Assembly: GCF_032393985.1 (NCBI RefSeq)
Contig: NZ_CP135918.1
Location: forward strand, 868,001 to 932,000
DNA length: 64,000 nucleotides
DNA from: Fischerella sp. JS2
Lineage (GTDB): Bacteria > Cyanobacteriota > Cyanobacteriia > Cyanobacteriales > Nostocaceae
Direction: 5' to 3'
The first letter of the stretch is position 1. The number at the start of each line of letters is the position of its first letter. Under the pieces are notes generated by a model, which saw only the letters and a list, made by a program, of their open reading frames with translations, was not told where the DNA came from and did no database searches. The position numbers were made by a program, and so were the translations under genes. This document shows, in pieces, positions 9,059-59,487 of this stretch.

Positions 9059-10360
9059 ATGACTTTTGATATTTTGATTCTTTCTAATGGCCCTGGCGAA
9101 GTAACTACATGGGTACGACCTGTAGTCAAGGCATTACGGCAAAAATTAGGCTGGGAGCGATTCTCCGAAGGAGACGCTACGCGAACGCACTTCAGAATTT
9201 CGGTCGTTCTCTCACCTTGTCCTCACGCCAGTGGCAAGGAAGCGGATATAGCCCGTTCTTATCCAGAAGTAGACAGAGTCCAGGCTGCCGAGTATTTTTG
9301 GCAATTTTTACTTTGGGGAAAAACTCATGAAAATTGGGACTGGAGAAGTAAAGGTGTAGTGATTTTTCTTGGTGGTGATCAATTTTTTCCCGTAGTGATT
9401 GCTAAAAGGCTGGGTTATCGCACCGTTGTTTATGCAGAATGGGAAGCACGCTGGCATAACCTAATTGATCGTTTCGGAGTCATGAAAGCAGAAGTTGCTG
9501 CCAAAGTCGCGCCTAAATATGCCCATAAATTTACAGTTGTCGGAGATTTAATGGCAGAAACCTCTTCAGAAGTAGTACTAGAAAAAACTCCTCACACTCA
9601 TCATACTCCTCATACTCCTCACACCTCCCAATTCCAAACCGAACTAATTGGTCTACTCCCCGGTTCCAAGCCTGCAAAATTATCCCAGGGAGTGCCTTTA
9701 ACTTTAGCGATCGCAGAATATGTTCAAGCCAAAAGACCACAAACAAAGTTTTTTATTCCTGTAGCGCCAACTTTGGATTTACAAACTTTAGCCAGTTTTG
9801 CCGATCCTCAGAAAAATCCTTACGTAAAAATTTTCGGTGGTGTGTCTGCCCAATTAAATAATTCTGAACCTCCGATACTGAAAACCTCAAGTGGTTTAAA
9901 TATAGAATTAATCATCAATCATCCAGCCTACGACAAATTGTCTCAGTGCCGAATTTGCTTAACTACAGTAGGCGCAAATACAGCCGAACTCGGTTCTTTA
10001 GCTGTACCAATGATTGTTTTGCTACCTACTCAACAACTGGATGCCATGAAATCATGGGATGGTTTACCGGGAATTTTGGTAAATTTACCGGGAGTAGGTT
10101 CGAGTTTTGCTAAGTTTATTAACTGGTTATTTTTACAGCGTAAAGGCTTATTGGCATGGCCTAATATCTGGGCAAAATCAGAAGTTGTTCCAGAATTAGT
10201 AGGAAAACTTCAACCCAAAGAAGTTGGAGAAATTGTTCTTGATTATTTAAATCATCCAGAAAAATTGGACGAAATGCGAGCAAAACTGCAAAGCATCAGA
10301 GGAGAAACAGGTGCAGCCAATAAATTAGCAGAGTTGGTATATGAAGAGATAAAAGGCTAA
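9059..10360 (+). CDS. LpxB-like (lipid-A-disaccharide synthase-related) glycosyltransferase
   Basis: The 433-residue protein resembles cyanobacterial lipid-A-disaccharide synthase-related proteins of GT-B fold. It has an N-terminal SNGPGEVTTWVRPV motif (residues 9-22), a GGDQFFPV segment, a GLLPGSKPAKLSQGVP sugar-nucleotide-binding motif around residue 199, and a TVGANTAELGSL segment near 302. Whether it acts on lipid A precursors is unproven, since typical cyanobacteria make little or no classical lipid A. The ATG lies inside a heptamer repeat block and no clear Shine-Dalgarno is seen. Two dispersed repeats sit in frame inside the gene: one gives the segment FSEGDATRTH, the other the histidine/proline-rich TPHTHHTPHTPHTS. 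Both fall between conserved blocks, and the frame is intact. Confidence 0.85.
   Translation: MTFDILILSNGPGEVTTWVRPVVKALRQKLGWERFSEGDATRTHFRISVVLSPCPHASGKEADIARSYPEVDRVQAAEYFWQFLLWGKTHENWDWRSKGVVIFLGGDQFFPVVIAKRLGYRTVVYAEWEARWHNLIDRFGVMKAEVAAKVAPKYAHKFTVVGDLMAETSSEVVLEKTPHTHHTPHTPHTSQFQTELIGLLPGSKPAKLSQGVPLTLAIAEYVQAKRPQTKFFIPVAPTLDLQTLASFADPQKNPYVKIFGGVSAQLNNSEPPILKTSSGLNIELIINHPAYDKLSQCRICLTTVGANTAELGSLAVPMIVLLPTQQLDAMKSWDGLPGILVNLPGVGSSFAKFINWLFLQRKGLLAWPNIWAKSEVVPELVGKLQPKEVGEIVLDYLNHPEKLDEMRAKLQSIRGETGAANKLAELVYEEIKG
9162..9188. repeat. Dispersed TCTCCGAAGGAGACGCTACGCGAACGC repeat inside the lpxB-like gene
   Basis: This element is common in Nostocales intergenic DNA. It contains the hairpin TCTCC-gaa-GGAGA, and here it lies in frame within coding sequence. 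Confidence 0.65.
9586..9630. repeat. CTCCTCACACT/CTCCTCATACT tandem repeat in coding sequence
   Basis: Units of 9 nt (ACTCCTCAT / ACTCCTCAC) repeat about four times. They encode T-P-H-T units in a probable surface loop of the LpxB-like protein. The same CTCCCCACACT-type repeat occurs between genes near 18410-18435. Confidence 0.7.
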
Positions 10361-10380
10361 GTGATTAAAATTTTTGGATT

Positions 10381-10426
10381 TGAGTCTCAGATCCCGACTT
10401 CTTAGAGAAGCCGGGATCTGAGACTC
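10381..10426. repeat. Long inverted repeat, possible terminator or MITE-like hairpin
   Basis: TGAGTCTCAGATCCCG (10381-10396) pairs perfectly with CGGGATCTGAGACTCA (10411-10426). The inner arms CTTCT and AGAAG extend the stem past one mismatch. The hairpin sits between the convergent lpxB-like and DUF4870 genes and may end transcription from either side. Its length and perfection also fit a small palindromic repeat element. Confidence 0.7.
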
Positions 10427-10469
10427 ACGAATATTTAGGATTGCTATAGAAAAACAATTATAGAATTAT

Positions 10470-10904
10470 CTACTTCAAAAGTCGTAAATTAAAAGGATAG
10501 CGATAAGATTGACCGTTATAAGCACGAAGTCCTCCAATAATTGTCATGATTAACTGAAAAATTATTACTACTATAGCAATAAATACTGGCAATATTTGCC
10601 AAGGTATAATTAAATCTAAAAAACTAGGTGAATAATCTTTTGACAGAAGAGCTAATAGGATAAAGATTAGTACTAGTAAAAAATTTAAAATCAAGCCAAA
10701 TGAGAATATATAAATTATAAGTGAAAGCTGAAAATTAACAGATTCTTTCCCTTGTTCATCAATAAATAGGTGCTTATCTTTTTGAGTAAGCCAAATAATT
10801 AGGGGAATTAAAACCGAGCCAAATGGGATAAAAAACCCTCCTAGCGCAGAAAAATGACAAGCCATTCCCCAAGCACGAGTTGTTTCATCAAGCGGGTTAT
10901 GCAT
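10470..10904 (-). CDS. DUF4870 family membrane protein
   Basis: This is a 144-residue protein of the DUF4870 (Tic20-like small membrane protein) family. The N-terminal motif TRAWGMACHFSALGGFF is followed by a hydrophobic segment, then LIIWLTQKDKHLFIDEQGKESVNFQ, which is the family signature, and two further hydrophobic segments (about residues 55-80 and 95-125). The end reads AYNGQSYRYPFNLRLL. It should sit in the cytoplasmic or thylakoid membrane; the function of the family is unknown. It is transcribed alone, towards the long inverted repeat. Confidence 0.85.
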   Translation of the reverse strand: MHNPLDETTRAWGMACHFSALGGFFIPFGSVLIPLIIWLTQKDKHLFIDEQGKESVNFQLSLIIYIFSFGLILNFLLVLIFILLALLSKDYSPSFLDLIIPWQILPVFIAIVVIIFQLIMTIIGGLRAYNGQSYRYPFNLRLLK

Positions 10905-11126
10905 CTTTATAATTGCCTTTTGATGCTAAAGAGTTGATGCAAATAGAGTTAATTAATAAAGATCATCTACATAATATTTTTCAGTTAGTGATTGGTAATA
11001 ATTGTAAGTTTTGTAATATATATTAATATTCATGGTGTTTATTTCTATTCTCACCTTTTAAACACCAATACACAAATACACGGAGATTTTTAGTTCAGCG
11101 TGTTGCATTATGTAATTATCTGTTTT

Positions 11127-11513
11127 TTAATCAGAAGAACTGCCGTCTCGCCGTCCCAGTTCGTACACACCACAACCAATACAGGCAAGTATACCCATAC
11201 TGATTGCCCAACTGCGACCTAAACTTAATTCCACACCCCAATTACAAAGAGCGCCAATGACAAGAAAAGGTATTATGCTAAATAATGAGGCGTAAAAGGC
11301 GTTCTGTGATTCTCTTGCCTGACGGGTTTTCTCAAATTCTGACTTGCTAGTGTAGAGCGATCGCTCAGCAAAATTGAACCAGCGATTAAGTTGCTCAATA
11401 ATCCATTCACTGACTGGTGAAAAACCTAAATATAGTGCCAAAGACCACAAACTTGCTCCAGCAATAGCTACTGTATCTAAGTCAAAACTAAAAGGCAATA
11501 TGTCAGTCAGCAT
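11127..11513 (-). CDS. Conserved cyanobacterial membrane protein, function unknown
   Basis: I do not recognise a characterised family. The 128-residue protein has a short hydrophobic segment at the N-terminus, a charged amphipathic middle part (EWIIEQLNRWFNFAERSLYTSKSEFEKTRQARE) and two hydrophobic segments towards the C-terminus, ending in GRRDGSSSD. The frame can be extended to a TTG codon at 11531, but the ATG at 11513 is the more ordinary start. No operon partner is evident. Confidence 0.65.
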   Translation of the reverse strand: MLTDILPFSFDLDTVAIAGASLWSLALYLGFSPVSEWIIEQLNRWFNFAERSLYTSKSEFEKTRQARESQNAFYASLFSIIPFLVIGALCNWGVELSLGRSWAISMGILACIGCGVYELGRRDGSSSD

Positions 11514-11644
11514 GGTGTGAAAGTCCAGCAAAGATCAAATTTAGCTTCTATTTAACCTTATTTAACCTCTGAAGAAATTTTAATTTTAAACAAAGGATAA
11601 GGGAACGGGGATTAGGTATAGAGAAATAGGATCTAAATTAATTT

Positions 11645-11688
11645 CCCGATCCCCGATCCCTGATCCCTGATCCCTGATCACCGAGCCC
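11645..11688. repeat. Heptamer tandem repeat (GATCCCT)n
   Basis: About five to six units of GATCCCC/GATCCCT lie just downstream of the fasciclin gene stop codon. A related CCCCGATCCCC unit appears again near 34362-34375. Confidence 0.8.
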
Positions 11689-11698
11689 CGGTCACCAA

Positions 11699-12529
11699 TT
11701 ACAAATCAGGAGGTAAAATGACATTGTCAATTGCATGAATCACGCCGTTACTACCTTTTATATCTGCTTGGACTACTTTAGCGTCGTTAACCATGACATC
11801 TTTAGGGCTATTAACCTTGACGCTTATCGGGCCACCTTCAACGCTTTTTACTTCGCCAGATTTCAAATCGCTGGATAATACCTGACCAGATACTACATGG
11901 TAGGTCAAAATTTTCACCAATACTTCTTTATTCTCTGGCTTCAACAAATCTTGTACAGCATCTTGTGGCAATTTGGCAAAAGCTGCATCAGTGGGTGCGA
12001 AAACTGTGAACGGACCCTGACCTTGGAGAATATCTACTAATCCTGCTGCTTTTAAAGCTTTGGTTAAAACTGTAAACTGTCTACTTGATTCCGCCAACGC
12101 TATTAAAGTTTTGTCTCCAGTACCAGCTTCTGGTGGAGGTGGGGTTGTTTCTGTTCCTGGTTGTGAAGGTTGAGTTTGGGGAGTGGTAGGTACAACTGGT
12201 GTTTCTGGGCTAGGTGTACTGCGGCGACGGTTATATGGAGGTTCGTTGAAAATACTGGGACTAGGATTTAGTACCCCGCCTCCACTATTTGTTTGTGCTA
12301 CCGTTTTTGGATTTAGGGCATTACCCTTTTGTTGTACCGACTTATCGAGTAGTGTGTAGTTAGGGTTTGCTAAAAGACGCTGACTACGATTATAGGGCGC
12401 TTCTTGAAAAATACTCGGACTAGGATTTAATATTTCTGCCCCTACGGGCAAACCCATGAGAAGACTGATGCCCGTTACTCCCACCATACCAGCCAAGTTG
12501 GTCAGCAAATTGCTATAATTTACCTTCAT
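11699..12529 (-). CDS. Secreted fasciclin (FAS1) domain protein
   Basis: The 276-residue protein has an N-terminal signal-like hydrophobic segment (residues 10-30). Two copies of an LNPSPSIF(Q/N)E(A/P)PYNR motif follow (residues 34-48 and 87-101), then a proline/threonine-rich linker, then one FAS1 domain (about residues 143-276). The FAS1 domain carries the classical blocks FTVFAPTDAAFAKLP and LTYHVVSGQVL. FAS1 domains mediate adhesion or surface association. The repeated motif before the domain is typical of cyanobacterial secreted fasciclins, but its role is unknown. The protein is probably periplasmic or extracellular. Confidence 0.92.
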   Translation of the reverse strand: MKVNYSNLLTNLAGMVGVTGISLLMGLPVGAEILNPSPSIFQEAPYNRSQRLLANPNYTLLDKSVQQKGNALNPKTVAQTNSGGGVLNPSPSIFNEPPYNRRRSTPSPETPVVPTTPQTQPSQPGTETTPPPPEAGTGDKTLIALAESSRQFTVLTKALKAAGLVDILQGQGPFTVFAPTDAAFAKLPQDAVQDLLKPENKEVLVKILTYHVVSGQVLSSDLKSGEVKSVEGGPISVKVNSPKDVMVNDAKVVQADIKGSNGVIHAIDNVILPPDL

Positions 12530-12880
12530 AAATTTTGTTTGGCTTTAATTTCTACAGATTACATAAAGACTTATAACATTTCGCTATGCAAAAAATCTAA
12601 CCACAGAAATAGGATTTTTTATCATTAATGTAGATGTGTGATTAGAGATGAATATTTTTAAGTTACTGCGACTGAATAATTATCAAAATTTCTCCAACAA
12701 AAATTAGGATTTATCATGGGGATAGAAAAATAACAATGAAATAATAACTATTAACAATTGACTATTGACAAGAAGTCAATGACTAATGACATCAATTTTT
12801 TGAGAAAGTGTCATTAAAATTAATTTTTGTAAAGTTACAATTGTAAGATAAAACAATTTACCAATTGCAGGATTGGAAAA
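12530..12880. other. Intergenic region between divergent fasciclin and GST genes
   Basis: AT-rich DNA that must contain two divergent promoters. It holds a short heptamer-like block (TAACTATTAACAATTGACTATTGACA) around 12746-12790. Nothing else is recognisable. Confidence 0.5.
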
Positions 12881-13813: not shown

Positions 13814-15559
13814 ATGACTTTAGGACAGCCATTAGGTTCAGTTACTCAAGGTTCCCTAACAGGCGGATTAGAAGTACGATTGCATCCCGATATTTTAGTT
13901 GAAGATATGCGAGTCGGTAAATTTTTAGTGGTGCAAGGGGTGCGATCACGTTTTTTCTGTATGCTTACAGATGTGGCGCTGGGAACTGCAAACCAAAGAA
14001 TTATTGCCAATCCTCCTAGTTGGGAGGATACTTTTTTACGAGAAGTTCTGGCTGGAAGTGGTACTTACGGTACTATTACTCTCGCACCAATGTTGATGTT
14101 TACCCCACCCGTAGAATATGGGGAAATGGGGGGGTTGGGAGATAGGGAGAATGGAAAAAGTTCAGCGTCGAAATCTCAGGCTTTAAGTTCCTTAGCATCA
14201 TTTCAACCCCAAACAAGCACAACAATGGAATTGATGCCAGTCAAAACTATTCCTAGCCATTTTAGCCAGGTTTATGATGCTTCGGTAGAAGATTTTCGGC
14301 GTGTATTTGGTTGGGAAGATGACCCCCAAAGAAAAAATTTCTCCATCGGTAAACCACTAGATATGGATGTACCGGTGTGCCTTGATTTAAACCGTTTTGT
14401 GGAACGTAGCAATGGTGTTTTTGGCAAATCGGGAACAGGTAAATCTTTTTTGACCAGATTACTTTTAGCTGGGACAATTCGCAAAAATGCCGCAGTAAAT
14501 TTAATATTTGATATGCATTCTGAATATGGTTGGGAAGCTGTTTCAGAAGGGAAACAATTTAGTACTGTTAAAGGTTTAAAGCAATTATTTCCTAACAAAG
14601 TAGAGGTATATACTCTCGATCCCGAATCTACAAAACGACGTGGTGTTCCTCACGCGCAAGAACTTTACCTGAGTTATGACCAAATAGAAGTAGAAGATAT
14701 TAAATTATGCTCTCGCGATTTAGGACTTTCAGACGCTAGCATAGATAATGCTAATATTCTCTTTGCAGAGTTTGGCAAGTCTTGGATTCTGCAATTGTTG
14801 AGTATGACCAATGAAGAAATCAAACTGCTGTGCGAAGAAAAGCGGGGACACCAAGGTTCAATTACAGCATTACAGCGCAAACTGTTTCGTCTAGAAAATT
14901 TAAAATACATGCGCGCTGCTTGTCCGCATAACTATGTTAATCAAGTTTTGCGATCGCTCGAAGCAGGTAAAAACGTCGTCATTGAGTTTGGTTCGCAATC
15001 GGATATGCTTTCTTACATGTTGGTGACAAACATGATTACTCGCCGCATTCACCAACATTATGTCAGCAAAGCCGAAAAGTTTTTGCAAACCAAAAATCCT
15101 AACGATAAACCAACACAGTTAATGATTACTATCGAAGAAGCCCATCGCTTCTTAGATCCTGCTATTGTCCAAAGTACTATTTTTGGGACAATCGCCCGGG
15201 AAATGCGGAAATATTTCGTCACGCTGCTGGTAGTCGATCAACGCCCATCTGGGATTGATAATGAAGTCATGTCTCAAATTGGGACTCGCGTCACCGCTTT
15301 GCTGAATGATGAAAAAGACATCGACGCGATTTTTACGGGGGTAGCTGGTGCTGGTGCTTTGAAGTCGGTATTGGCAAAGTTAGATTCTAAGCAACAAGCT
15401 TTGATTTTAGGTCATGCTGTACCTATGCCTGTTGTGGTGCGTACCCGTCCTTACGATTCTGTTTTCTATGAGGAAATTGGCGATGCTGCTTGGGAAGAGA
15501 GATCAGATGAGGAGGTTTTTGCAGCTGCGGAATTGGCAAAGGCAGATTTGGGGTTTTAA
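13814..15559 (+). CDS. HerA-like DNA-translocating ATPase (DUF87 family)
   Basis: This is a hexameric HerA/FtsK-superfamily ATPase of 581 residues. An N-terminal HerA beta-barrel-like (HAS-barrel) domain (about residues 1-90) precedes the ATPase core. The Walker A motif GKSGTGKS lies near residue 204, the Walker B segment ITIEEAHRFL near 440, and the arginine-containing VVDQRPSGIDNEVMSQIGTR segment near 475. HerA proteins pump DNA and usually work with a nuclease such as NurA in end resection; no nuclease gene is adjacent. A low-complexity segment around 14110-14165 (GEMGGLGDRENGK), encoded by G-rich repeat DNA, separates the barrel from the core. Nearly all cyanobacteria carry this ATPase, so it is probably a housekeeping gene and not part of the 53-59 kb module. 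Confidence 0.88.
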   Translation: MTLGQPLGSVTQGSLTGGLEVRLHPDILVEDMRVGKFLVVQGVRSRFFCMLTDVALGTANQRIIANPPSWEDTFLREVLAGSGTYGTITLAPMLMFTPPVEYGEMGGLGDRENGKSSASKSQALSSLASFQPQTSTTMELMPVKTIPSHFSQVYDASVEDFRRVFGWEDDPQRKNFSIGKPLDMDVPVCLDLNRFVERSNGVFGKSGTGKSFLTRLLLAGTIRKNAAVNLIFDMHSEYGWEAVSEGKQFSTVKGLKQLFPNKVEVYTLDPESTKRRGVPHAQELYLSYDQIEVEDIKLCSRDLGLSDASIDNANILFAEFGKSWILQLLSMTNEEIKLLCEEKRGHQGSITALQRKLFRLENLKYMRAACPHNYVNQVLRSLEAGKNVVIEFGSQSDMLSYMLVTNMITRRIHQHYVSKAEKFLQTKNPNDKPTQLMITIEEAHRFLDPAIVQSTIFGTIAREMRKYFVTLLVVDQRPSGIDNEVMSQIGTRVTALLNDEKDIDAIFTGVAGAGALKSVLAKLDSKQQALILGHAVPMPVVVRTRPYDSVFYEEIGDAAWEERSDEEVFAAAELAKADLGF

Positions 15560-50370: not shown

Positions 50371-52737
50371 ATGGATACGGAAGAAGCTTTAGAGTTTCTA
50401 GATAATTTAGTTTTTACTAATACAGGAGAACACTTAGATAGAACTCAAAGAATTATTTTGCGTCAATTGTGGGAAGACGAAAGGCGTACATATTTAGATA
50501 TTGCTAACAGCCGAGGTTATACAGAAGCTCACCTCAAAGCAGTTGGTGCTAAACTATGGCAGTTACTGTCGCATGTAACAGGGGAAAGAGTATCAAAATC
50601 AAACTTTCAAGCGGTGATTGTCAATTGGTGGAGAAACCAACGCTCGCAAAGATACTTCCAGAATCATAATGATAATGGGCAACTTAAGCAATCGCAAATA
50701 GAAAGTATAGAATCTAACTTTGTTGGACGCGATCGCGAAATAGCAGAACTCAATTACATCATCCGTCAAGGAACAAAAGTTATTCTCATTCAAGGAGAAG
50801 GCGGTGTTGGTAAAACTACCCTTGCACGCAAATATTTTAAAACCCAAAAACTAGACAAAGTTTTAGAATTATGGATGGCAACAGATACTCAAAATATTAC
50901 CTCAGCAGAGAGTGTAGTTGAAGAATGGTTGCGGCGAGATTTTAACGAAGAACCAGGACGAGAATTTGGTATTAATTTGGAGAGACTGCGGCGTAAATTA
51001 CGAGATCCAAAGTACCAAATAGGCATATTTATTGACAACTTAGAAACAGCTTTAGATAGAAATGGTAAATTAATTGATACTCGTCGTCCTTATGTGGATT
51101 TATTGCGAGTTTTAGCAGATTCATTAGTACATTCAATCACCTTAGTAACTAGTCGCGAGCGTTTATCGGAATCTAGTATAGAAATTTCTACTTACCTTCT
51201 AGAAGGTTTGAACGAACAAGCATGGCGACAATTTTTTAGTAGCCACAATATTGATGCTAACACCATAGTTTTAAGTGAAATGTGCAAAGCCTATGGAGGA
51301 AATGCTAAAGCCATGCAAATTATTCGGGGTGCAATTTCTACAGATTTTGGCGGTGATATAGATGCTTATTGGCAAGAACACAGCAACGATTTACTCAATG
51401 AAAGACAATTGAATGATTTAGTTACTACTCAATTTGATCGATTGCAGGAAAATAATATAGAAGCATACAGATTACTGTGTCGTTTAGGTTGCTACCGTTA
51501 TCAAGACATCACATCAGTACCGATTGAAGGTGTTTTATGTTTACTTTGGGATGTTGCCGAATCACAACGCCGACGTGTCATGAGAGCTTTGCAAGATTTA
51601 TCATTAATAGAAGCTAAAAAAGGACAGTACTGGCTGCATTCAGTAATTCGCGCTGAAGCGATCGCTAGACTCAAATCTACTCCCGAATGGGAATTAGTGA
51701 ACTACAAAGCAGCAGAATTTTGGACACAACAAGTAGTAGAAGTTAAAGATATTATTGATGCTTTAAAAGCATTAGAAGCTTATTATCACTATGTAGAAAT
51801 TGAAGATTTTGAAAAAGCTGCCAATGTCATCATCAAAGGTAGAGGTAAACAATGGGGTACTGGTTTACCTTTAGGCTGTTCATTTTACCAACTTGGATTA
51901 CCCCAAAAAATTATTTCTGTGATCACAAGAATCATTGATCATGTGCAATCCCAAGAAAGCCTTAGCAAACTTTATAATATGCTAGGCTATACATACAGAA
52001 TTATCGGCCAGATTGAACAAGCCATACAATGCTACCAAACCATAGAAGCAATAGTAGATCAAAAGTTAGTTTCTGAGCAGACAAAAATTTCTTTACTCTT
52101 TAATAGAGGGCTTTGCAAACTTGAATTATGGGAAGTGCCAGAAGCTCAAGCATGTTTTGGTGCTGTTTGCTCACTAGCTGAAAAAAACAGTATTTTAGAT
52201 GATTATATGATATATTCTCAATGTTGTCTGGCTTATCTGCATTCTTGCTCTGGTTCTCAAGCAGATGCTTTTTCTCTAGCTGAAAATGTCTATCTTTCTA
52301 TCTCTTCCTCAAGCAGAATGACTTTGTGGGGAATAGGACACAGCCTTGCAACTCTGGCGTTTACTTATAAAAATTTAGATAATTTAGAAAAATCTTTACA
52401 GATATGCCAAGAAACTATTTTACATTGTGAAGAAAATAATTTTACGCAAATCAAAGGTAGAGCGATCGGTTGTTTGGCAGAAATTTATCGCGAAAAACAA
52501 GAATATAGCACAGCTATTTCCTATCACAAAGAAACTATAGATATACTACAAAAAATTGGTGCTAAAGCCAATTTAGCTAATGCTTATTATCAACTAGCAT
52601 TGACTTATAAAATTACAGGTGAAACGCATAAGAGTAGAGATAATTTTCTAGAAGCAATTCGCCTCTTTCAAGAAATGCAAGCACCCAAGCAAGTAGAAAA
52701 AGTCCAAAAATCAATGGGTGTTTTTACAAAAGATTAA
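50371..52737 (+). CDS. HTH + NB-ARC (STAND) + TPR protein
   Basis: The 788-residue protein begins with a helical HTH-like domain (about residues 1-90; YLDIANSRGYTEAHLKAVGAKLWQLLSHVTGE) of the kind found in vWA-MoxR-associated and other cyanobacterial conflict or signalling proteins. An NB-ARC/STAND NTPase follows, with NFVGRDREIAEL, Walker A GEGGVGKTT (142-150), Walker B IFIDNLE (219-225) and TSRERL sensor segments. The C-terminal part (about 460-788) consists of TPR-like helical repeats. STAND proteins oligomerise on ligand or invader recognition; here no effector domain (TIR, caspase, nuclease) is seen, so a regulatory or adaptor role is possible. The gene converges on the leftward nuclease-ATPase group. 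Confidence 0.88.
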   Translation: MDTEEALEFLDNLVFTNTGEHLDRTQRIILRQLWEDERRTYLDIANSRGYTEAHLKAVGAKLWQLLSHVTGERVSKSNFQAVIVNWWRNQRSQRYFQNHNDNGQLKQSQIESIESNFVGRDREIAELNYIIRQGTKVILIQGEGGVGKTTLARKYFKTQKLDKVLELWMATDTQNITSAESVVEEWLRRDFNEEPGREFGINLERLRRKLRDPKYQIGIFIDNLETALDRNGKLIDTRRPYVDLLRVLADSLVHSITLVTSRERLSESSIEISTYLLEGLNEQAWRQFFSSHNIDANTIVLSEMCKAYGGNAKAMQIIRGAISTDFGGDIDAYWQEHSNDLLNERQLNDLVTTQFDRLQENNIEAYRLLCRLGCYRYQDITSVPIEGVLCLLWDVAESQRRRVMRALQDLSLIEAKKGQYWLHSVIRAEAIARLKSTPEWELVNYKAAEFWTQQVVEVKDIIDALKALEAYYHYVEIEDFEKAANVIIKGRGKQWGTGLPLGCSFYQLGLPQKIISVITRIIDHVQSQESLSKLYNMLGYTYRIIGQIEQAIQCYQTIEAIVDQKLVSEQTKISLLFNRGLCKLELWEVPEAQACFGAVCSLAEKNSILDDYMIYSQCCLAYLHSCSGSQADAFSLAENVYLSISSSSRMTLWGIGHSLATLAFTYKNLDNLEKSLQICQETILHCEENNFTQIKGRAIGCLAEIYREKQEYSTAISYHKETIDILQKIGAKANLANAYYQLALTYKITGETHKSRDNFLEAIRLFQEMQAPKQVEKVQKSMGVFTKD

Positions 52738-52875: not shown

Positions 52876-53772
52876 TTATGTATATATTCTGAGCTTTTGC
52901 AGTAACTCTTGAGTTAACTGAGAAAAAGCTTTAGAACCTGATGATTGGGGAGCATTTAAAATCACAGGCATAAAACTATCAACTGCTTTCGCAACATTCA
53001 CATCAACTGGTATTTGAGTTTGACATATTTTTTCTACACCAAAATCTTGATGAACGCGTTGCATCACTTGTTTATAATATCTGCCAGTTAACAAGTTGGC
53101 ATTAGACATTGTAAAGACAATTCCCAGCATTTGAATATCAATTTTGGCTTCGTGTTCGTGGCTTTCTTTGAGCTGAGCAATACGTCTTTCTAGTAACTGA
53201 ATACCCACCACAGATAAAGGTTCTGGTTTAGCAGGAAGAATGTAGAAATTGCTAGTAGCTAAAGCACTACGAGTCAAAAGATTATATCCTGGGGCGCAGT
53301 CTAAAATGATAAAATCATATTCTTCCCGGACTGGTTCTAAAAGTTTACCAAGTAAGACTCTTTCAAAACGATTCCAAATAGTTTCAAAATCCTTTTCTCC
53401 TAAAGTAACTGCTTGTTGATGCAGCATTTCGGAAACAACAAATTCATCATACAAATCAATATCCCCTGGTAACAAATTTAATCCGGGGAGATTACAAACT
53501 TGGGATAGAATTATATCTTGAATTGTATGTTTCTGTTCCGGTTCTGGATTGATAATTTGATCTATCAGATACCTAAACGTCTTTCTGTTTTTCCGGCGCT
53601 TGGCAAACTCCATAGGCGACATGAGACTAAGTGTCGCACTAATTTGACTATCTAAGTCAAGCACAAGTACTCGCTTACCATGTTCTTTTGCTAAACAAGT
53701 CGCTATATTCACGCTAAGAGTTGTTTTACCAACCCCACCTTTCATATTTGCAGTTGCAATTACATATCCCAT
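52876..53772 (-). CDS. ParA/MinD-type ATPase
   Basis: The 298-residue protein has the deviant Walker A KGGVGKTTL (residues 12-20), the conserved LVLDLDSQISATLSLM and the Walker B-like FIILDCAPGYN, with the C-terminal PVDVNVAKAVDSFMPV. ParA ATPases form dynamic patterns on DNA for partition or positioning. No parB or centromere-like repeats are visible nearby. It is 151 bp downstream of the FtsK-nuclease gene on the same strand, so membership in that operon is possible but not certain; a stand-alone or plasmid-derived origin is the alternative. Confidence 0.92.
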   Translation of the reverse strand: MGYVIATANMKGGVGKTTLSVNIATCLAKEHGKRVLVLDLDSQISATLSLMSPMEFAKRRKNRKTFRYLIDQIINPEPEQKHTIQDIILSQVCNLPGLNLLPGDIDLYDEFVVSEMLHQQAVTLGEKDFETIWNRFERVLLGKLLEPVREEYDFIILDCAPGYNLLTRSALATSNFYILPAKPEPLSVVGIQLLERRIAQLKESHEHEAKIDIQMLGIVFTMSNANLLTGRYYKQVMQRVHQDFGVEKICQTQIPVDVNVAKAVDSFMPVILNAPQSSGSKAFSQLTQELLQKLRIYT

Positions 53773-53923: not shown

Positions 53924-56473
53924 TTATGTAGAAGGAATTTGAATATTACTAGCAAATAAACTTTGTAAGCGTTGTAGTTTAGAAGCATTTTGGTAAAGTA
54001 AATCACCTTTTCCTAATAGATATGCGGCTGTTGTTTCTGTACCTCCCAGAATAATTTTTGAATCTGCTTCACTAGCAGTACGTAAGGCTACTCTCCCTGG
54101 TAAATTTGAGCGTATTATGGGAGTGACTATTTTAGCTTCGGGACGTTGAGTAGCAATAATTAGATGAATTCCAGCGGCTCTTGCCTTTGCACCTAATCGT
54201 TTAATATATTGCTCTAGTGCTGTGCGGGTTTCTTTTTCTGCCATCAAATCGGCGTATTCATCAAAAATACAGACTATTCGAGGTAAAGACTGACGAGAAG
54301 TTTGATTGTATGTAGTTAGATCAGCACACCTAGCTTGTTCAAAGTGTTGGTAACGCAATTCCATTTCTGTTACCAGTTCATCCATTAATTCAATAGCGCG
54401 ATCGCTTTCTTTGACAACAGGCGCATACAACCACTGCATTTCCTCAAACTCGGGAAACGTCACCCGTTTGGGATCAACAAGAGCAATTTTTAGGTGTTTG
54501 GGTGAATGACGAATAATGAGACTGAGGAGAAGCGATCGCAAAAATTCACTTTTACCACTTCCTGTCGTACCCCCAACCAAAAAATGACAAGTATTCGGAT
54601 CAGATAAATCAGCCTCTACTAATTGTCCTTCCAAATTTACCCCAATGGCAATTTTCACTGGTGCTGTAGCAGGTAAAACTTGTGGCTTGATATAATCTGC
54701 AAACTTCGCAACTTGTCTATCGCAACGAGGTAAATCAACACTGACATAACCAGCTTGAGGTGCAATGAAGGGAGGATCTGCTAACCCCAACTGCACTTGT
54801 AAATCTTTAGATAAACGCAAAATCGAGTTAACGCTTACGCCTAAATGAGGTTTCAGCTTCACACGAATAAAAGCTGAACCAACAGCCGCACCTTGGTAAT
54901 CAACTTTGATTTTAAAAGATTGCAGAGTTGCAACCAATTCTTCAGCAATTGCATCAGCATTAACAGATTCCTGGCTATTCTTTATAGAAGAGATATCTGT
55001 TGAAACAAAATAAGTTTGACATTTTTGTTTTTGAGGACAAATTTCACACAGGTGAGGCTGAGTTGTCGGTGGTGGTGGATTAGGATGAGGTGGTTCCCAA
55101 GTCAACCATTGTTGCATTTGTTGTAATTTATAAGGAATCAGCCTATGAACTGTATTTTCTAGTTCTTCCCAGGTATATTTATACTCTTTAAATTCTGGCA
55201 AAACACAATATACTGCTGAATCTACAGGTACTTTCTTCTTTTGCCACAGCATGTAACTATAAAGTGCAACTTGCGCTAATTGTGCTGACGGATCTACAGG
55301 CTGATAAGTTTTGAATTCAACTACACAAAGGCGCTTGAGTTCAAAGTTGAAAACTAAGCAATCAAATTCTCCTACTACTTTTTGTTTGCTTTCATCAGGT
55401 AGATCAAAATAATGTTCAAGCTTACGTCCTTCTGAGATAAAAGTGTTACTCATCAGCTTTTCTGCACTACAATAGCGACGATTGACTACAAGTATTTCTG
55501 CGAAGCGTTTGATTAGTCCTTGTAATCCTTGCCAAACATTTAATAATGGCTGTGCTTGGTTGACATCTTTAGCAACAGCTTTTTCTAAATAAGCAGAAAA
55601 TTTGAGTTGATAAAAAAGCTGCTGCATGGTAGAGGCTATTTCCTCTACCTTTAATTGGGATACACCAAGTTGAAATAATTCTTTAAATTTTGGTTCATCA
55701 GTAGCTAAATTAATGAATTCATCAGCTAAATAATGAAATACATTACCAATACCAAGTTTATTATCTGATGGTATAAATAAGCTATTGCCGCCAAAATGCT
55801 GATGCAAATAAAATAGGCGAGGACACTCAAAAGCAACTCTAACTTTAGTAGCAGATAAAGATAAATTTTCAGATACATCTTTTGAGTGCTTTGAGGTGTT
55901 AGGCATATGAGCAAAAATATTACTGACAGTATTATGATTTAAAATTTTTAATAAATATTGATGCACAGCAGCTAGGTACACTGTATCCATTGCGGCATAA
56001 TGTAGCTGCTTTTCCGTCAAAGGACGCTTTCCCCAGTCACTTCCCTGTTCTTCCTTGTTGACATCACAAAAGTGACATAATTCAGTAGCTAAAGTTTTGA
56101 GTTGCAAGTTAGATACTTTTAAAATATCTTTTTTAATCCTTCTTGCTATTTTCAGAGTACAAGTAACATTCTGTGCAGAATTTCCACCTAAATACTTTAA
56201 ATCAAAACTAGCATTATGAAATATTTTTTCAACTTTGGGATTAATCATGATTTGGTTAATAAAAAATAAAACCAAATCAGGCTGATGCAACACATCAAGA
56301 ATATAAGTAAATTTTCCTGTCAAATCTCTAGGTTCTATCAGTATCTGAATTAATGACAATTTTGGATCAGAAGTTTGCCAATCTGCAACTTCTGTATCTA
56401 ACCATAGTGTTTTAGCCAGGGCAAATTTTGCTATTTGCATCCTGATTTCAGTAGGTTCTTTCAGGTACTGCAT
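53924..56473 (-). CDS. Fusion of DEDDy 3'-5' exonuclease, Cas4-like Fe-S nuclease and FtsK-type DNA translocase
   Basis: The 849-residue protein has three parts. (1) About 15-180: RNase D-like DEDDy exonuclease, with Asp26/Glu28 in LDTE, Asn87 to Asp91 in NASFD and Tyr159/Asp163 in YAAMD. (2) About 205-490: RecB/Cas4-like PD-(D/E)XK nuclease, with Cys217 in FECPRLFYL, His247, Asp371 in GEFD, Glu386-x-Lys388 in EFK, the QVALY motif (401-405), and Cys476/479/485 completing a four-cysteine Fe-S site. (3) About 505-849: FtsK alpha-like segment, Walker A GTTGSGKS (635-642), Walker B IFDE (736-739) and the ATQRP motor motif. A proline run (462-469) precedes the last cysteines. It lies 13 bp after the upstream ATPase gene. 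The role is inferred: powered processing of DNA ends or invading DNA. Confidence 0.9.
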   Translation of the reverse strand: MQYLKEPTEIRMQIAKFALAKTLWLDTEVADWQTSDPKLSLIQILIEPRDLTGKFTYILDVLHQPDLVLFFINQIMINPKVEKIFHNASFDLKYLGGNSAQNVTCTLKIARRIKKDILKVSNLQLKTLATELCHFCDVNKEEQGSDWGKRPLTEKQLHYAAMDTVYLAAVHQYLLKILNHNTVSNIFAHMPNTSKHSKDVSENLSLSATKVRVAFECPRLFYLHQHFGGNSLFIPSDNKLGIGNVFHYLADEFINLATDEPKFKELFQLGVSQLKVEEIASTMQQLFYQLKFSAYLEKAVAKDVNQAQPLLNVWQGLQGLIKRFAEILVVNRRYCSAEKLMSNTFISEGRKLEHYFDLPDESKQKVVGEFDCLVFNFELKRLCVVEFKTYQPVDPSAQLAQVALYSYMLWQKKKVPVDSAVYCVLPEFKEYKYTWEELENTVHRLIPYKLQQMQQWLTWEPPHPNPPPPTTQPHLCEICPQKQKCQTYFVSTDISSIKNSQESVNADAIAEELVATLQSFKIKVDYQGAAVGSAFIRVKLKPHLGVSVNSILRLSKDLQVQLGLADPPFIAPQAGYVSVDLPRCDRQVAKFADYIKPQVLPATAPVKIAIGVNLEGQLVEADLSDPNTCHFLVGGTTGSGKSEFLRSLLLSLIIRHSPKHLKIALVDPKRVTFPEFEEMQWLYAPVVKESDRAIELMDELVTEMELRYQHFEQARCADLTTYNQTSRQSLPRIVCIFDEYADLMAEKETRTALEQYIKRLGAKARAAGIHLIIATQRPEAKIVTPIIRSNLPGRVALRTASEADSKIILGGTETTAAYLLGKGDLLYQNASKLQRLQSLFASNIQIPST

Positions 56474-56486
56474 GGCTAAACATTAA

Positions 56487-58583
56487 TTATATTTTATTGA
56501 CTAAACAAATTAATCGGTCTTGTAACTTAGCTTTAGGATTGATAATTTTTACTTTTTGTTCCTGACATAATAAATCAATCAAGAGTTGAAGATCAGTTTC
56601 TTCTACTTCAGGAAACTGAGCAACAGACTGGGAAATTAAAGTTGCTACTCCCATATAGCTTTGAGTTTTGACTAAATTTAGCATAAAATCTTTAACTGGT
56701 CGCAAATCTTTTTTGCCGTTTCTATCAACAGTATCAGAACCTTGTTGAGAAATAATTCCTAAATCCTGCAATAAAGCACATTTATTTAAAATTTTAGTTT
56801 CACGAGTTAAAGATTGTAGTTCTTGTAAAGTAATAGTATTACCACCAAGCACCAATTCCTGAGCGATCGCAGAATTTACTAAACTATCGTATGTTGCTAA
56901 GTAATGAACTGAAGCAAGATTTGGTTTAATGTGATGATGATTGGTTCCTTTGAAAATTTGATTATAGATTTTATAACCAACCAGTTTTGTGTTTCCTACC
57001 GTGTTGATTCTAATCAAATATAGTTTTTTACAAATATTTTCTTGAATTGCTTTTTGACAAGCATTCATTATATTGAAAAAACTTGTCATATTAGCATCTT
57101 CTGTCCACACTATTCCTACTTTGTCTTGTTTATCAGGTGCTTGATAACTTAAGGAATAGCTAGCATATTTACCTTTGAGCAGTTTTGGCTTAATCGATTG
57201 TACTTGTAATGCCTCTAAAACTTCTTGCACCATCTTGATTAAGTCAGTTGCTGGTAAAAGAGATATTTTTCCTATTTTACTTTGAGTTTTCTTAAATTCC
57301 TGCTGCCATAGAAGTTGAAATTCAGCTATGATTCTTTCTCGATTTGATATATCAATTATTCTATCAGAGTCTTGATTTACGAGTGTAATAACTGGCTGAT
57401 TATTATTTTGTAATGTTTTGGTAGATGAATAATTTGTTTGATGCTTAGTAGGAATTTTTACTTTGGTATTTCCTAATAAAATTTTGTATTTTTGATACTC
57501 TAATCTACCCAAGATTAGAGCATTCCTTGGCATTGTTTTACCACCAGGAAAATTTGCCTCCAATAATTGCTGAGTTAAGGGAAAAATAGGTGAATTCGGT
57601 TTAGGGTTTGCTTTTTGATGTAGTGATTGTAATTTATCAGCCCAAAGCGATTCTGCTTGATCTAAATTAATAGGTTTGAGTGATACTAACCTGTCAATAC
57701 GAGCTTTGTCTGATTGTAAAATATAGTTTTTGCAGCGTATCCAGTTATCCTTAACTATGCTGATAATTATTAAAAAATTTTTGAGATTGTCGTTGTGAAT
57801 AGTAGTATTAATATTAAAAATAAGTTGAGAATTTGAATTAAAATTTATTGATGCTTCAACTTGATCAAAGCATAAAACTATTGGTTGAGTATCAGTGGAA
57901 ATTTTACCAAAATTAGCTAATATATTTTTTGCTGCATCCTCAGTATCAATACAGTATTTCACTCTTAAAGCTTGCATTGATTCTTCACTGATATCATCTC
58001 CTTTTAACCACTCGCACGCTATGGTATAAAGTTCAGGATTTGTCAAGTCGTGTAGCACTCCGAAAAAAACCTCAGGATTATAAATACCTGCCTGTTGGTA
58101 GTTATCCTTAAGATGCTTGATAAATTTTTGGCGATCATTCAGTAACAATTTCCAGATGTTATCATTTTTATTAATAAAAGCAGATAAGCTCTTTAGCCAA
58201 AGTATCAGTTGAGATTCTTGCTGACCATTTGGTACTTTGATTAAACTATCAACCGTATAGCGCAAAACATGTCGCCATATATAGTCATTTTCAGCCCAAG
58301 GGCCAATATAAGCAAAAAAAGCTTTAGGATTAAATTTATGCTTGAGTCTACCTAGTAAATAACTTTTGCCAGAACCCGAATCACCTATCAGCAATACAGT
58401 ACGACTGCGATGGTCTATCGTCACTAATTGTAATAATTCTTCAATCTCATTGATTGCTTCTTGATGAATAGATTCAACCACAGATTTGAAGTCTTGATGT
58501 TCAGTCCAAAAATTACCTGTTTTCAAATTTACTAGGTCAAACGGGTTAACCTCACGTTGAATAATTTCGTTGATTGATGCCAT
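56487..58583 (-). CDS. AAA/STAND-like ATPase partner protein
   Basis: The 698-residue protein has Walker A GDSGSGKS (residues 67-74) and Walker B-like IVLCFDQVE (235-243), as in ORC/Cdc6-, BREX- and STAND-type ATPases. Helical segments follow (to about 370), then a linker. A distinct beta-rich region (about 430-560; YSLSYQAPDKQDKVGIVWTED and KKLYLIRINTVGN) could be a degenerate restriction-endonuclease-like or sensing domain. The C-terminus (about 590-698) looks like winged helices (LLQDLGIISQQGS and LLIDLLCQEQKVKIINP). It lies 13 bp upstream of the fusion nuclease and 58 bp downstream of the winged-helix gene. I do not recognise a characterised family beyond the ATPase core. Confidence 0.8.
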   Translation of the reverse strand: MASINEIIQREVNPFDLVNLKTGNFWTEHQDFKSVVESIHQEAINEIEELLQLVTIDHRSRTVLLIGDSGSGKSYLLGRLKHKFNPKAFFAYIGPWAENDYIWRHVLRYTVDSLIKVPNGQQESQLILWLKSLSAFINKNDNIWKLLLNDRQKFIKHLKDNYQQAGIYNPEVFFGVLHDLTNPELYTIACEWLKGDDISEESMQALRVKYCIDTEDAAKNILANFGKISTDTQPIVLCFDQVEASINFNSNSQLIFNINTTIHNDNLKNFLIIISIVKDNWIRCKNYILQSDKARIDRLVSLKPINLDQAESLWADKLQSLHQKANPKPNSPIFPLTQQLLEANFPGGKTMPRNALILGRLEYQKYKILLGNTKVKIPTKHQTNYSSTKTLQNNNQPVITLVNQDSDRIIDISNRERIIAEFQLLWQQEFKKTQSKIGKISLLPATDLIKMVQEVLEALQVQSIKPKLLKGKYASYSLSYQAPDKQDKVGIVWTEDANMTSFFNIMNACQKAIQENICKKLYLIRINTVGNTKLVGYKIYNQIFKGTNHHHIKPNLASVHYLATYDSLVNSAIAQELVLGGNTITLQELQSLTRETKILNKCALLQDLGIISQQGSDTVDRNGKKDLRPVKDFMLNLVKTQSYMGVATLISQSVAQFPEVEETDLQLLIDLLCQEQKVKIINPKAKLQDRLICLVNKI

Positions 58584-58641
58584 ACTTAAATTTTGATGAG
58601 AGAGCGAACTTCAATTATGTGTAAAATTGCAGTAATGATTG

Positions 58642-59487
58642 CTAGTTAACACTGATAAAAAACAGCGAACCACCTACATTTTGTTGAATTCCAGCATCAA
58701 CTTGTTCTGGAGTATAAGGTTTTGGATCTAATAGGGTGCTAAACTCAATTTGATCATTCCTTTGTAACCGATACAGCGCCTTATCCAACTCATCCCGTGA
58801 CAATGGCGGTTGCAACTTTTGCCGCAAATGGTAAATTGGCAAATAATTATCAGTACCAAGCTCTTTATCTAATTTCTGGATAGTTTGTAAAATTTCTTCG
58901 TCAGTGATATTGATAATCGTCTCAACACCTGACTCTGTACTGTGAACAGCTGAAGTAGAGACTTGTTCTGGTTTAACTCTCAAAGTTTTTCGCAGAAAGC
59001 GCACGTAATTATTTAGTAGATCCAAGCTAATGTTTGCAGCACCTTTGGGACTGTAGTCATCTCGTAAAAATTCTATTCCACGTTCAGTCAGCCAAACCTC
59101 AGGTTTCGTTCTTTTGATTTTAAGTTCAACTTCAATTAATCCGCGATCGCTTAAAGTTTTCAATATTGTGTCTCTTTCTGCGGCTTTGAGTGAAGTAATC
59201 TTACTAGGAGTGATTTTGCCTGAAGTTTTACTTAGCTTCTCTAAAACTTTACGTTCTTTATCTGTAATCGGTAATTCGGCTGGATCAAGTTTCAATAGTG
59301 CTTGACCAGGCGATAAAATCTTGACTGTGGCAGTCTCACGCGAAAAGTCTACTAGATTGCGATCGCCTAAATCTCGACATATATTATCTTTACCTTTAAA
59401 GGTTTTGAAAACACTACCACTAAGGCTTGCTCGATAGTTAGAACATCCTAACAGCTTTAGTAAGAACTTTAATTCATTAGTATCCAT
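58642..59487 (-). CDS. Winged-helix-like DNA-binding protein of the nuclease-ATPase operon
   Basis: The 281-residue protein appears to contain several winged-helix units. One is near residues 70-150 (ITDKERKVLEKLSKTSGKITPSKI and LKTLSDRGLIEVELK). A C-terminal one is near 195-281 (LPIYHLRQKLQPPLSRDELDKALYRLQRNDQIEF, ending GGSLFFISVN). There is no enzymatic motif. As first gene of the leftward set it may target the ATPase-nuclease pair to DNA or regulate the operon. No promoter was identified, but 217 bp of upstream DNA separates it from the preceding glycosyltransferase gene. Confidence 0.75.
   Translation of the reverse strand: MDTNELKFLLKLLGCSNYRASLSGSVFKTFKGKDNICRDLGDRNLVDFSRETATVKILSPGQALLKLDPAELPITDKERKVLEKLSKTSGKITPSKITSLKAAERDTILKTLSDRGLIEVELKIKRTKPEVWLTERGIEFLRDDYSPKGAANISLDLLNNYVRFLRKTLRVKPEQVSTSAVHSTESGVETIINITDEEILQTIQKLDKELGTDNYLPIYHLRQKLQPPLSRDELDKALYRLQRNDQIEFSTLLDPKPYTPEQVDAGIQQNVGGSLFFISVN

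Follow-up and report, generated by a model that had tools for sequence, protein, structure and literature searches.

A conserved three-gene operon of Fischerella sp. JS2 encoding an Orc/Cdc6-like ATPase and a predicted nuclease-FtsK fusion

Introduction

What is the role of a protein in which two nucleases are joined to a DNA pump, encoded directly behind an ATPase and a winged-helix protein? The question is raised by three genes, here named A, B and C, in a stretch of 64,000 nucleotides from Fischerella sp. JS2 (contig NZ_CP135918.1, positions 868,001 to 932,000), referred to below as the window. The original prediction saw in them a DNA-processing or anti-invader machine that had not been described as a defence or repair system. 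This novelty does not hold, since Orc/CDC6-coupled HerA/FtsK capture systems were predicted as an anti-invader class by Rakesh, Aravind & Krishnan (NAR 2024; PMC10853773), by computation and not by experiment. The A-B-C module is very probably a member of this class. Its likeliest role, which is considered probable, is chromosome-encoded degradation of plasmid or phage DNA.

Domain content and catalytic residues

The three genes lie on the minus strand in the order A (58642-59487; 281 aa), B (56487-58583; 698 aa) and C (53924-56473; 849 aa), A being the first gene of the operon. The open reading frames (ORFs) are separated by 58 bp (A to B) and 13 bp (B to C), and these positions agree exactly with the original prediction.

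The ORF, its Pfam matches and its homologues indicate that C is a fusion of four parts, all of which matched Pfam above the curated cut-off. Residues 1-180 (55934-56473) form a DEDDy 3'->5' exonuclease of the RNase D type (DNA_pol_A_exo1, 1.3e-27, residues 8-178). Residues 205-486 (55016-55861) form a PD-(D/E)XK nuclease with the cysteines C217, C476, C479 and C485 (PDDEXK_1, 5e-12, same residues). This middle nuclease, which also matches the PADLOC Cas4 model (1.6e-6), is predicted to be of the Cas4/AddB type with a 4Fe-4S cluster. An FtsK alpha domain follows at residues 499-582 (54728-54979; FtsK_alpha, 5.4e-8), and an FtsK/SpoIIIE motor at residues 604-840 (53954-54664; FtsK_SpoIIIE, 8.8e-40, residues 604-778). 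Cell-division FtsK carries an N-terminal membrane domain and a C-terminal gamma domain; neither was found in C among Pfam matches up to E 1, and the protein ends just past the motor. Pfam matches included no helicase domain, and scans of the module proteins against NCBIfam and PHROGs gave no specific name above the curated cut-off.

Residue conservation was counted in 60 full-length C proteins including that of the window (58 distinct, as two pairs come from the same genome in different collections). Left out of this count were 24 more ORFs with a match to the C profile, of which 14 are fragments (partial, split or remnant), five are exonucleases standing alone and five are other FtsK proteins. 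The DEDDy residues D26, E28, D91, Y159 and D163 are present in 60/60, as are the four cysteines and Q401 of the middle nuclease and the motor residues K641/S642 (Walker A) and D738/E739 (Walker B). H247, D371 and K388 are present in 59/60, and position 386 is E in 53 and D in seven. The complete PD-(D/E)XK set is kept in 59/60, the exception being L079. As judged from the alignment, this conservation is far beyond chance. The intact exonuclease site, the Cas4-like residues with four cysteines and the FtsK motor motifs of the original prediction are all confirmed, and the profile searches that it had proposed, for RNase D, Cas4/PDDEXK_1 and FtsK_SpoIIIE, gave the expected matches. The altered C of L079 lies at 9508-12873 of that locus; a separate 287-aa PD-(D/E)XK-like ORF is found upstream of its A-B-C genes, at 4925-5788.

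AlphaFold2 models of B and A were built on alignments of 44 and 41 proteins, respectively. For B (mean predicted local distance difference test, pLDDT, 85.8; predicted template modelling score, pTM, 0.85), a PDB search with the model returned ORC/Cdc6 chains as its top nine matches, at modest E values (1.8e-4 to 5.1e-4) and low template modelling scores, with other AAA+ proteins next. The sequence-only match to Orc1/Cdc6 was weak (0.029). B models as an Orc/Cdc6-like AAA+ ATPase, with the AAA+ core at residues 1-345 (57549-58583; Walker A GDSGSGKS, Walker B ending in LCFDQ) and a C-terminal winged helix at residues 620-696 (56496-56726). Between them, the order of secondary-structure elements in the model at residues 414-575 (56859-57344) suggests a restriction endonuclease (REase)-like alpha/beta domain, for which no fold match to an REase was obtained independently. 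The motif tables show no conserved (D/E)xK motif there, and the domain is predicted to be catalytically empty.

The Walker A lysine of B, K73, is present in all 87 proteins with a letter at the site. Residue 241, after the Walker-B aspartate, is Q in 56 of 89 proteins, N in 28, S in one and E in four, so the usual catalytic glutamate is replaced by Gln or Asn in 84/89. This replacement leads us to infer that B binds ATP and hydrolyses it weakly, acting as a clamp or switch.

In its model, A consists of three winged helices, at residues of about 1-72, 73-150 and 195-281 (wH1, wH2 and wH3). The model has a mean pLDDT of 84.6 and a pTM of 0.53, and the mutual arrangement of the domains is uncertain. 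Pfam gave a weak winged-helix match below the cut-off (HTH_45, 4.7e-4), and a fold search of the PDB with the model gave no match at E<=1e-3. The models bear out the claim that a winged-helix gene and an ATPase gene accompany C. The triple winged helix of A, the REase-like domain of B and the FtsK alpha domain of C were not part of that claim.

Distribution and operon order

The module was sought in 195 genomes of the same order as the source, a sample drawn from a larger group. C matched at 1e-30 in 128 of these, many of them through a stand-alone RNase D-like exonuclease alone. C proper, defined by a best E < 1e-130 in a list compiled by hand, with remnant or other-FtsK genomes such as G077, G111, G039 and G144 placed outside, occurs in 70/195. 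B is present in 69 of the 70 C-positive genomes vs 20 of the 125 C-negative genomes; five of 94 B-positive genomes, with a sole match of 1e-16 to 1e-19, were not counted. In a sample of the phylum, B matched at 1e-15 in 50 of 386 genomes, a few matches being weak or partial, and all 50 belong to the order of the source, whose share of the 386 is not stated in the output.

A-B-C is a conserved three-gene bacterial operon. Gene order was examined at fetched loci for 68 C proteins, of which 60 have the exonuclease and eight do not (66 distinct after two same-genome pairs). Codirectional A-B-C genes were found at 62/68 (60/66 distinct), with median gaps of 50.5 and 22.5 bp, so the order is not unique to the genome of the window, a point on which the original prediction had asked for a check. 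The six remaining C proteins do not show the full arrangement. For L046 (genome G142), an A-B pair is located elsewhere in the same genome (L193); L090 and L093 start near the contig start and hold part of B only; L111 and L042 have no recognised A; L115 is a distant locus of Candidatus Electrothrix gigas.

The module behaves as an accessory element: its presence is patchy, decayed remnants occur, and it is absent from some members of C-bearing genera. Within g20, G012, G040, G099 and G145 have C while G082 and G158 (85% complete) do not; within g60, G113, G130, G156 and G183 have it while G079 and G143 do not. What is left of C in G077 and G111 is its 3' end alone, near the same ParA gene that adjoins the module in the window, which indicates decay in place.

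C proteins without the exonuclease and operons without C

The exonuclease of C shares 53-59% identity with the stand-alone exonucleases matched at 17/20 fetched loci, in related genomes and, with 55%, elsewhere in the genome of the window. In the exonuclease tree, 62 C versions and one short solo ORF form a weakly supported group (0.655) that excludes the 20 other solo proteins. Eight of the 68 C proteins examined lack the domain, a form not foreseen in the original prediction: L040, L041 (N-terminally truncated), L081, L110, L111, L042, the plasmid copy L205 and the Electrothrix protein L115. The stop codon at L040 and L041 (genomes G047 and G040) is terminal and not internal, and these are plain exonuclease-less or truncated forms. 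L042 is irregular, C217 and H247 being changed too. The exonuclease-less cyanobacterial proteins are scattered in a tree rooted on L115, which suggests that the domain has been lost repeatedly. Given these eight proteins, the exonuclease is dispensable, and the core of C, in terms of predicted domains, is a Cas4-like nuclease with FtsK. The description 'two nucleases on one pump' is accurate for the window protein and for 60/68 C proteins, but is not universal.

In related ARRANGEMENTS, A-B-B operons without a following C are found at L185-L188, L195 and L196, and A-B pairs without a following C at L190, L191, L193 and L194. Some of these genomes hold C elsewhere, for example G009 (L187 and L087) and G142 (L193 and L046). 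Additional A and B copies also occur directly ahead of A-B-C, for example at L040, L066, L068 and L075. The C-less operons, with the B-bearing genomes that have no C, suggest that A and B may work without the C nuclease.

Two other loci resemble the module. In Electrothrix (L115), genes in the same order encode a 247-aa protein, an Orc-like ATPase that aligns with B (hhalign probability 98.3%, E 1.4e-14) and a Cas4-FtsK protein in which the nine PD-(D/E)XK and cysteine positions are all kept. The first protein was considered as a homologue of A; profile comparison gave 5% probability, so homology is not claimed and the likeness is one of position alone. On plasmid NZ_CP050441.1 of Tolypothrix sp. 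PCC 7910 (L206), the gene order is HTH (helix-turn-helix), HerA, NurA and a B-like ATPase (hhalign 97.9%, E 3.4e-13), the ATPase having an RNase_T exonuclease at its N-terminus. From its predicted domains this is a parallel system built from other parts, in which the ATPase rather than the motor bears the exonuclease. The Walker-B D-Q of B is seen in both the Electrothrix and the Tolypothrix relatives.

At five further loci (L197-L201), other FtsK proteins of 688-741 aa are 44-54% identical to the C motor. They have no match to the two nuclease domains of C, and A and B are absent from the fetched stretches.

Relation to phosphorothioate systems

Among defence-system models in PADLOC, the motor of C matches SspH (1.2e-64) and mad8 (6.8e-28). 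The SspH match raises the question of whether the module serves a phosphorothioate (Dnd or Ssp) system as its restriction arm, like SspFGH or DndFGH. The genome of the window does encode DndC-, DndD/PbeC- and DndB-family genes (L100, G000:C1:2880000-2897000). It also has an SspD-like gene (PADLOC, 1.5e-112; L101, G000:C1:4793000-4810000). Upstream of this gene lie a DUF4007 gene and a gene for a 743-aa protein, and downstream of it an aminotransferase-V gene, a possible cysteine desulfurase. These loci are megabases from the module, the SspD-like gene being at 4.80 Mb and the module at 0.92 Mb, and no linkage exists. DndC, found in 159/195 genomes, is somewhat commoner where C is present (63/70 vs 96/125; Fisher p=0.033, uncorrected for phylogeny), but a DndC match at 1e-20 is missing from seven of the 70 C-positive genomes, four of which (G063, G096, G142 and G174) are at least 99% complete. 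No Ssp model is among the 14 families matching A. SspF matches 3/44 B proteins weakly (best 1.3e-4), and SspG is not among the 25 of 33 families listed for B. DndF matches 8/44 B proteins, again weakly (best DndF model 5.8e-4), and neither DndG nor DndH was seen for the window proteins at E<=0.01. With the association weak and uncorrected and with C present in DndC-less genomes, phosphorothioate-dependent restriction was rejected as the main explanation and is regarded as improbable.

The Dnd genes of L100 are close to BrxL and a PglZ-like gene, a BREX-phosphorothioation neighbourhood. L101 is a possible ssp modification locus.

Genomic context and inheritance

Neighbouring genes were surveyed within 5 kb of 81 loci, comprising A-B-C, A-B-B and A-B loci, remnants, other FtsK loci and the window. 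In the window, a ParA-like gene (52876-53772) lies downstream of C on the same (minus) strand. Recurrent neighbours in the survey include a ParA cluster (30 loci, with divergent members counted), a glycosyltransferase (19) and an IleRS-like tRNA synthetase (18, two of them not at A-B-C loci). ParA was considered as a fourth gene of the module. It was rejected as such because it is matched at E<=1e-70 in 168/195 genomes, C-negative ones included, and it is taken as a core chromosomal neighbour.

A ParB_N-domain gene is found near the module or its remnants at 8/81 loci (L050, L069, L070, L095, L186, L189, L203 and L204). These genes and the nearby ParA, together with one A-B-C copy on a predicted-conjugative plasmid, would be compatible with a domesticated conjugative or partition apparatus, in which C is an FtsK-like coupling protein with no immune role. 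The two strongly conserved nuclease sites would not be needed for coupling, and this explanation is very improbable. At L095 the neighbour of the ParB_N gene encodes a ParA-like protein of 471 aa, whose N-terminal part matches HSDR_N weakly.

Proximity to defence genes, which the original prediction had suggested examining, was not borne out. The flanks of 41 loci were scanned, ten near-relative loci and proteins of at least 1,600 aa having been left out beforehand; 145 of 153 listed flank proteins were covered, the eight dropped being seven of more than 1,000 aa (six of them IleRS-like) and L052:37-2427. The scan concerns the module flanks alone, with no control regions. Single matches among those listed were to AbiEii, a Cas12f-type (TnpB-like) protein, SspA/DndA (cysteine desulfurase), Csx1, mad3, DrmC and PDC-S03. 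A defence-island location was rejected, as no defence family among those listed matched more than one of the 145 proteins. As to mobility, the recurrent neighbours are core or metabolic genes and one copy is on a plasmid; no systematic search for integrases or relaxases was made.

Of the eleven families represented by more than one genome in the C tree, five are monophyletic (f10, f20, f21, f29 and f33), or six if f1 is counted, whose clade otherwise holds only named Nostocales; f13, f9, f5, f15 and f18 are scattered. Monophyly was read from the C tree alone with no species tree, so that loss and transfer are not separated.

These data bear on a rival role in host DNA maintenance, in which the module would process ends in the manner of AddAB or HerA-NurA, or survey chromosome copies, degrading broken or mis-segregated DNA. 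Cyanobacteria are often polyploid. Such a role would suit a chromosomal module that has the core ParA gene within 2.6 kb downstream of C at 20/61 loci (60 plus the window) and an IleRS-like gene within 5 kb at 18/81, a C tree that is partly family-wise and a motor that is highly conserved (mean pairwise identity 0.77). Nucleases of the AddB/Cas4 type have, moreover, been linked to recombination and repair (PMC5704561). However, ParA is also present in C-negative genomes, and the absence of C proper from 125/195 genomes, with decay in some, would be unusual for a maintenance function. The maintenance role is accordingly held to be unlikely, though it is the most serious of the rivals considered.

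Two other genes of the window may be mentioned. Near the ParA gene, at 50371-52737 (plus strand), a 788-aa protein has a Pfam-recognised AAA_16/STAND-like ATPase followed by TPR repeats, and could be a sensor of the NACHT kind. At 13814-15559 (plus strand) there is a HerA-type ATPase (DUF87, 121 bits); no NurA, nuclease or Orc-like ATPase was recognised beside it on inspection by eye.

Rates of change

Mean pairwise identity was compared in 55 operons for which A, B and a full-length C were matched; the unmatched set gave nearly the same values. Within C, the motor is the slowest-changing part of the module (0.77), followed by the FtsK alpha domain (0.64), the exonuclease (0.59) and the PD-(D/E)XK nuclease (0.54). 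The values for B are 0.54 (AAA+), 0.45 (REase-like) and 0.33 (winged helix, the fastest measured), and those for A are 0.49 (wH1), 0.44 (wH2) and 0.63 (wH3). Fast winged helices on a slow motor would fit changing recognition of targets. This argument is suggestive only, as wH3 of A changes more slowly than either nuclease.

Probable function

Assignment to the capture systems is supported by the co-occurrence of C with B, the ORC/Cdc6 fold matches, the Tolypothrix plasmid locus with HerA, NurA and a B-like ATPase, and the copy on a predicted-conjugative plasmid. From the domain content, the conserved catalytic residues and the conserved operon, which were observed directly, a course of action may be proposed. 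A and the Orc/Cdc6-like ring of B would recognise a DNA feature of an invading replicon, the ring holding ATP and probably hydrolysing it slowly, in view of the Gln or Asn in place of the Walker-B glutamate. A and B would then load C at the recognised site, where C may assemble as an FtsK-type hexamer on double-stranded DNA and pump it. The pumped DNA would be presented to up to six Cas4/AddB-like Fe-S nucleases, and the DEDDy exonuclease could trim the 3' strand, with destruction of both strands as the outcome.

An anti-invader role is favoured by the patchy presence of the module, its decayed remnants, its fast winged helices and the SspH and mad8 matches of its motor. Several observations weigh against it. 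B occurs without C in 20/195 genomes, and no C follows in six A-B-B and four A-B operons. The recurrent flanking families (ParA, IleRS-like, glycosyltransferases) are core or metabolic, and no defence neighbour recurs, each of the 25 of 27 PADLOC families listed (E<=1e-15) matching one of the 145 flank proteins. Inheritance appears partly family-wise in the C tree. A search of 50,697 phage records did not find B, and among 72,556 plasmid records a full-length B was found once, on the predicted-conjugative pPSE7367.01, where the A-B-C genes have the exonuclease-less form of C (L205). The third winged helix of A (0.63) is more conserved than either nuclease of C, and no report of a bench test of the module was found in the open-licence literature. 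Residue conservation and patchiness fit the anti-invader role, while the location among core genes and the partly family-wise inheritance fit maintenance too, and for this reason the former is put no higher than probable. The original prediction was sound as to the domains, and its phrase 'DNA-processing or anti-invader machine' agrees with the published class prediction (PMC10853773), but the defence-gene neighbourhood was not borne out.

A more elaborate version of the anti-invader role would make C a single polypeptide forming an FtsK hexamer with Cas4/AddB-type and DEDDy nucleases, so that both strands are destroyed during pumping. The change of the Walker-B Glu to Gln or Asn would keep the Orc-like ring in its ATP state until a target is found by the fast-changing winged helices. 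The C-less A-B-B operons would serve to mark targets, acting with C or with other effectors, and the whole would be an old, chromosomally settled cyanobacterial defence rather than a passing island. Taken as one claim, this is doubtful.

A predicted anti-invader (or repair) machine with its catalytic residues kept is present in approximately one-third of the sampled genomes of the order (70/195). The module could be relevant to phage resistance and to the transfer of plasmids into cyanobacteria, and a compact three-gene operon would make the HerA/FtsK capture proposal directly testable.

Comparison with known systems

AddAB couples a nuclease to an ATP-driven DNA motor. C resembles AddAB/RecBCD and Cas4 in having a four-cysteine Fe-S PD-(D/E)XK nuclease on such a motor, but its motor belongs to the FtsK family, which pumps double-stranded DNA, and no helicase domain is among its Pfam matches. 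Fusions of Cas4-like nucleases to helicases have been described in an account whose main text makes no use of the word 'FtsK' (PMC5704561).

SspFGH mediates phosphorothioate-based restriction (PMC8092258). It is likewise a three-gene module with one Walker-A protein and an FtsK-like C-terminus in SspH, but its genes adjoin sspBCD and are tied to phosphorothioate modification, whereas the present module is not adjacent to such genes, and the SspF and SspG models match neither A nor B convincingly. DndFGH shares the logic of an ATPase, a winged helix-turn-helix (wHTH) protein and a HerA/FtsK-containing nuclease (as set out in PMC10853773). It differs in that only weak DndF matches to some B proteins, and no DndG or DndH match to the window proteins, were obtained.

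HerA-DUF4297 has been shown experimentally to be an anti-phage complex (PMC11291478). Like HerA-NurA, it couples a hexamer of the HerA/FtsK superfamily to a nuclease. In the present module the motor is FtsK and not HerA, the nucleases are of other families and fused in cis, and an Orc-like ATPase and a wHTH protein are added.

The closest likeness is to the Orc/CDC6-coupled capture systems. HerA/FtsK, ORC/Cdc6-like ATPases, fast-evolving wHTH domains and nucleases have been noted to recur together, and the HerA/FtsK pump has been proposed to channel foreign DNA to nucleases (PMC12839542). According to PMC10853773, the ATPase of the class has an invariable order of AAA+, REase-like and wHTH domains, the active REase belongs to one of two families, one of them AbiJ-like, and subsets have a fused 3'->5' exonuclease, an FtsK alpha domain or a protein with 2-4 wHTH domains related to DndG/SspB. 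The module has the Orc/Cdc6-like AAA+ protein, the FtsK motor with its alpha domain, an REase with active residues and the fused 3'->5' exonuclease. In the model of B, the motif-less alpha/beta domain between AAA+ and winged helix would correspond to the inactive REase of the class. A, modelled as three winged helices, could correspond to the 2-4 wHTH protein, although no PDB match at E<=1e-3 was obtained for it. Differences are also apparent. The neighbourhoods of the class are called mobile, whereas the recurrent neighbours here are core or metabolic. The nuclease is Cas4/AddB-like with four cysteines, and may represent the other, non-AbiJ-like family of PMC10853773, in the main text of which neither 'cyanobact' nor 'Cas4' occurs. 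Beyond the published class, the present analysis adds the Cas4-type nuclease, the Walker-B change in B, the C-less A-B-B operons, the dispensable exonuclease and the distant Electrothrix counterpart.

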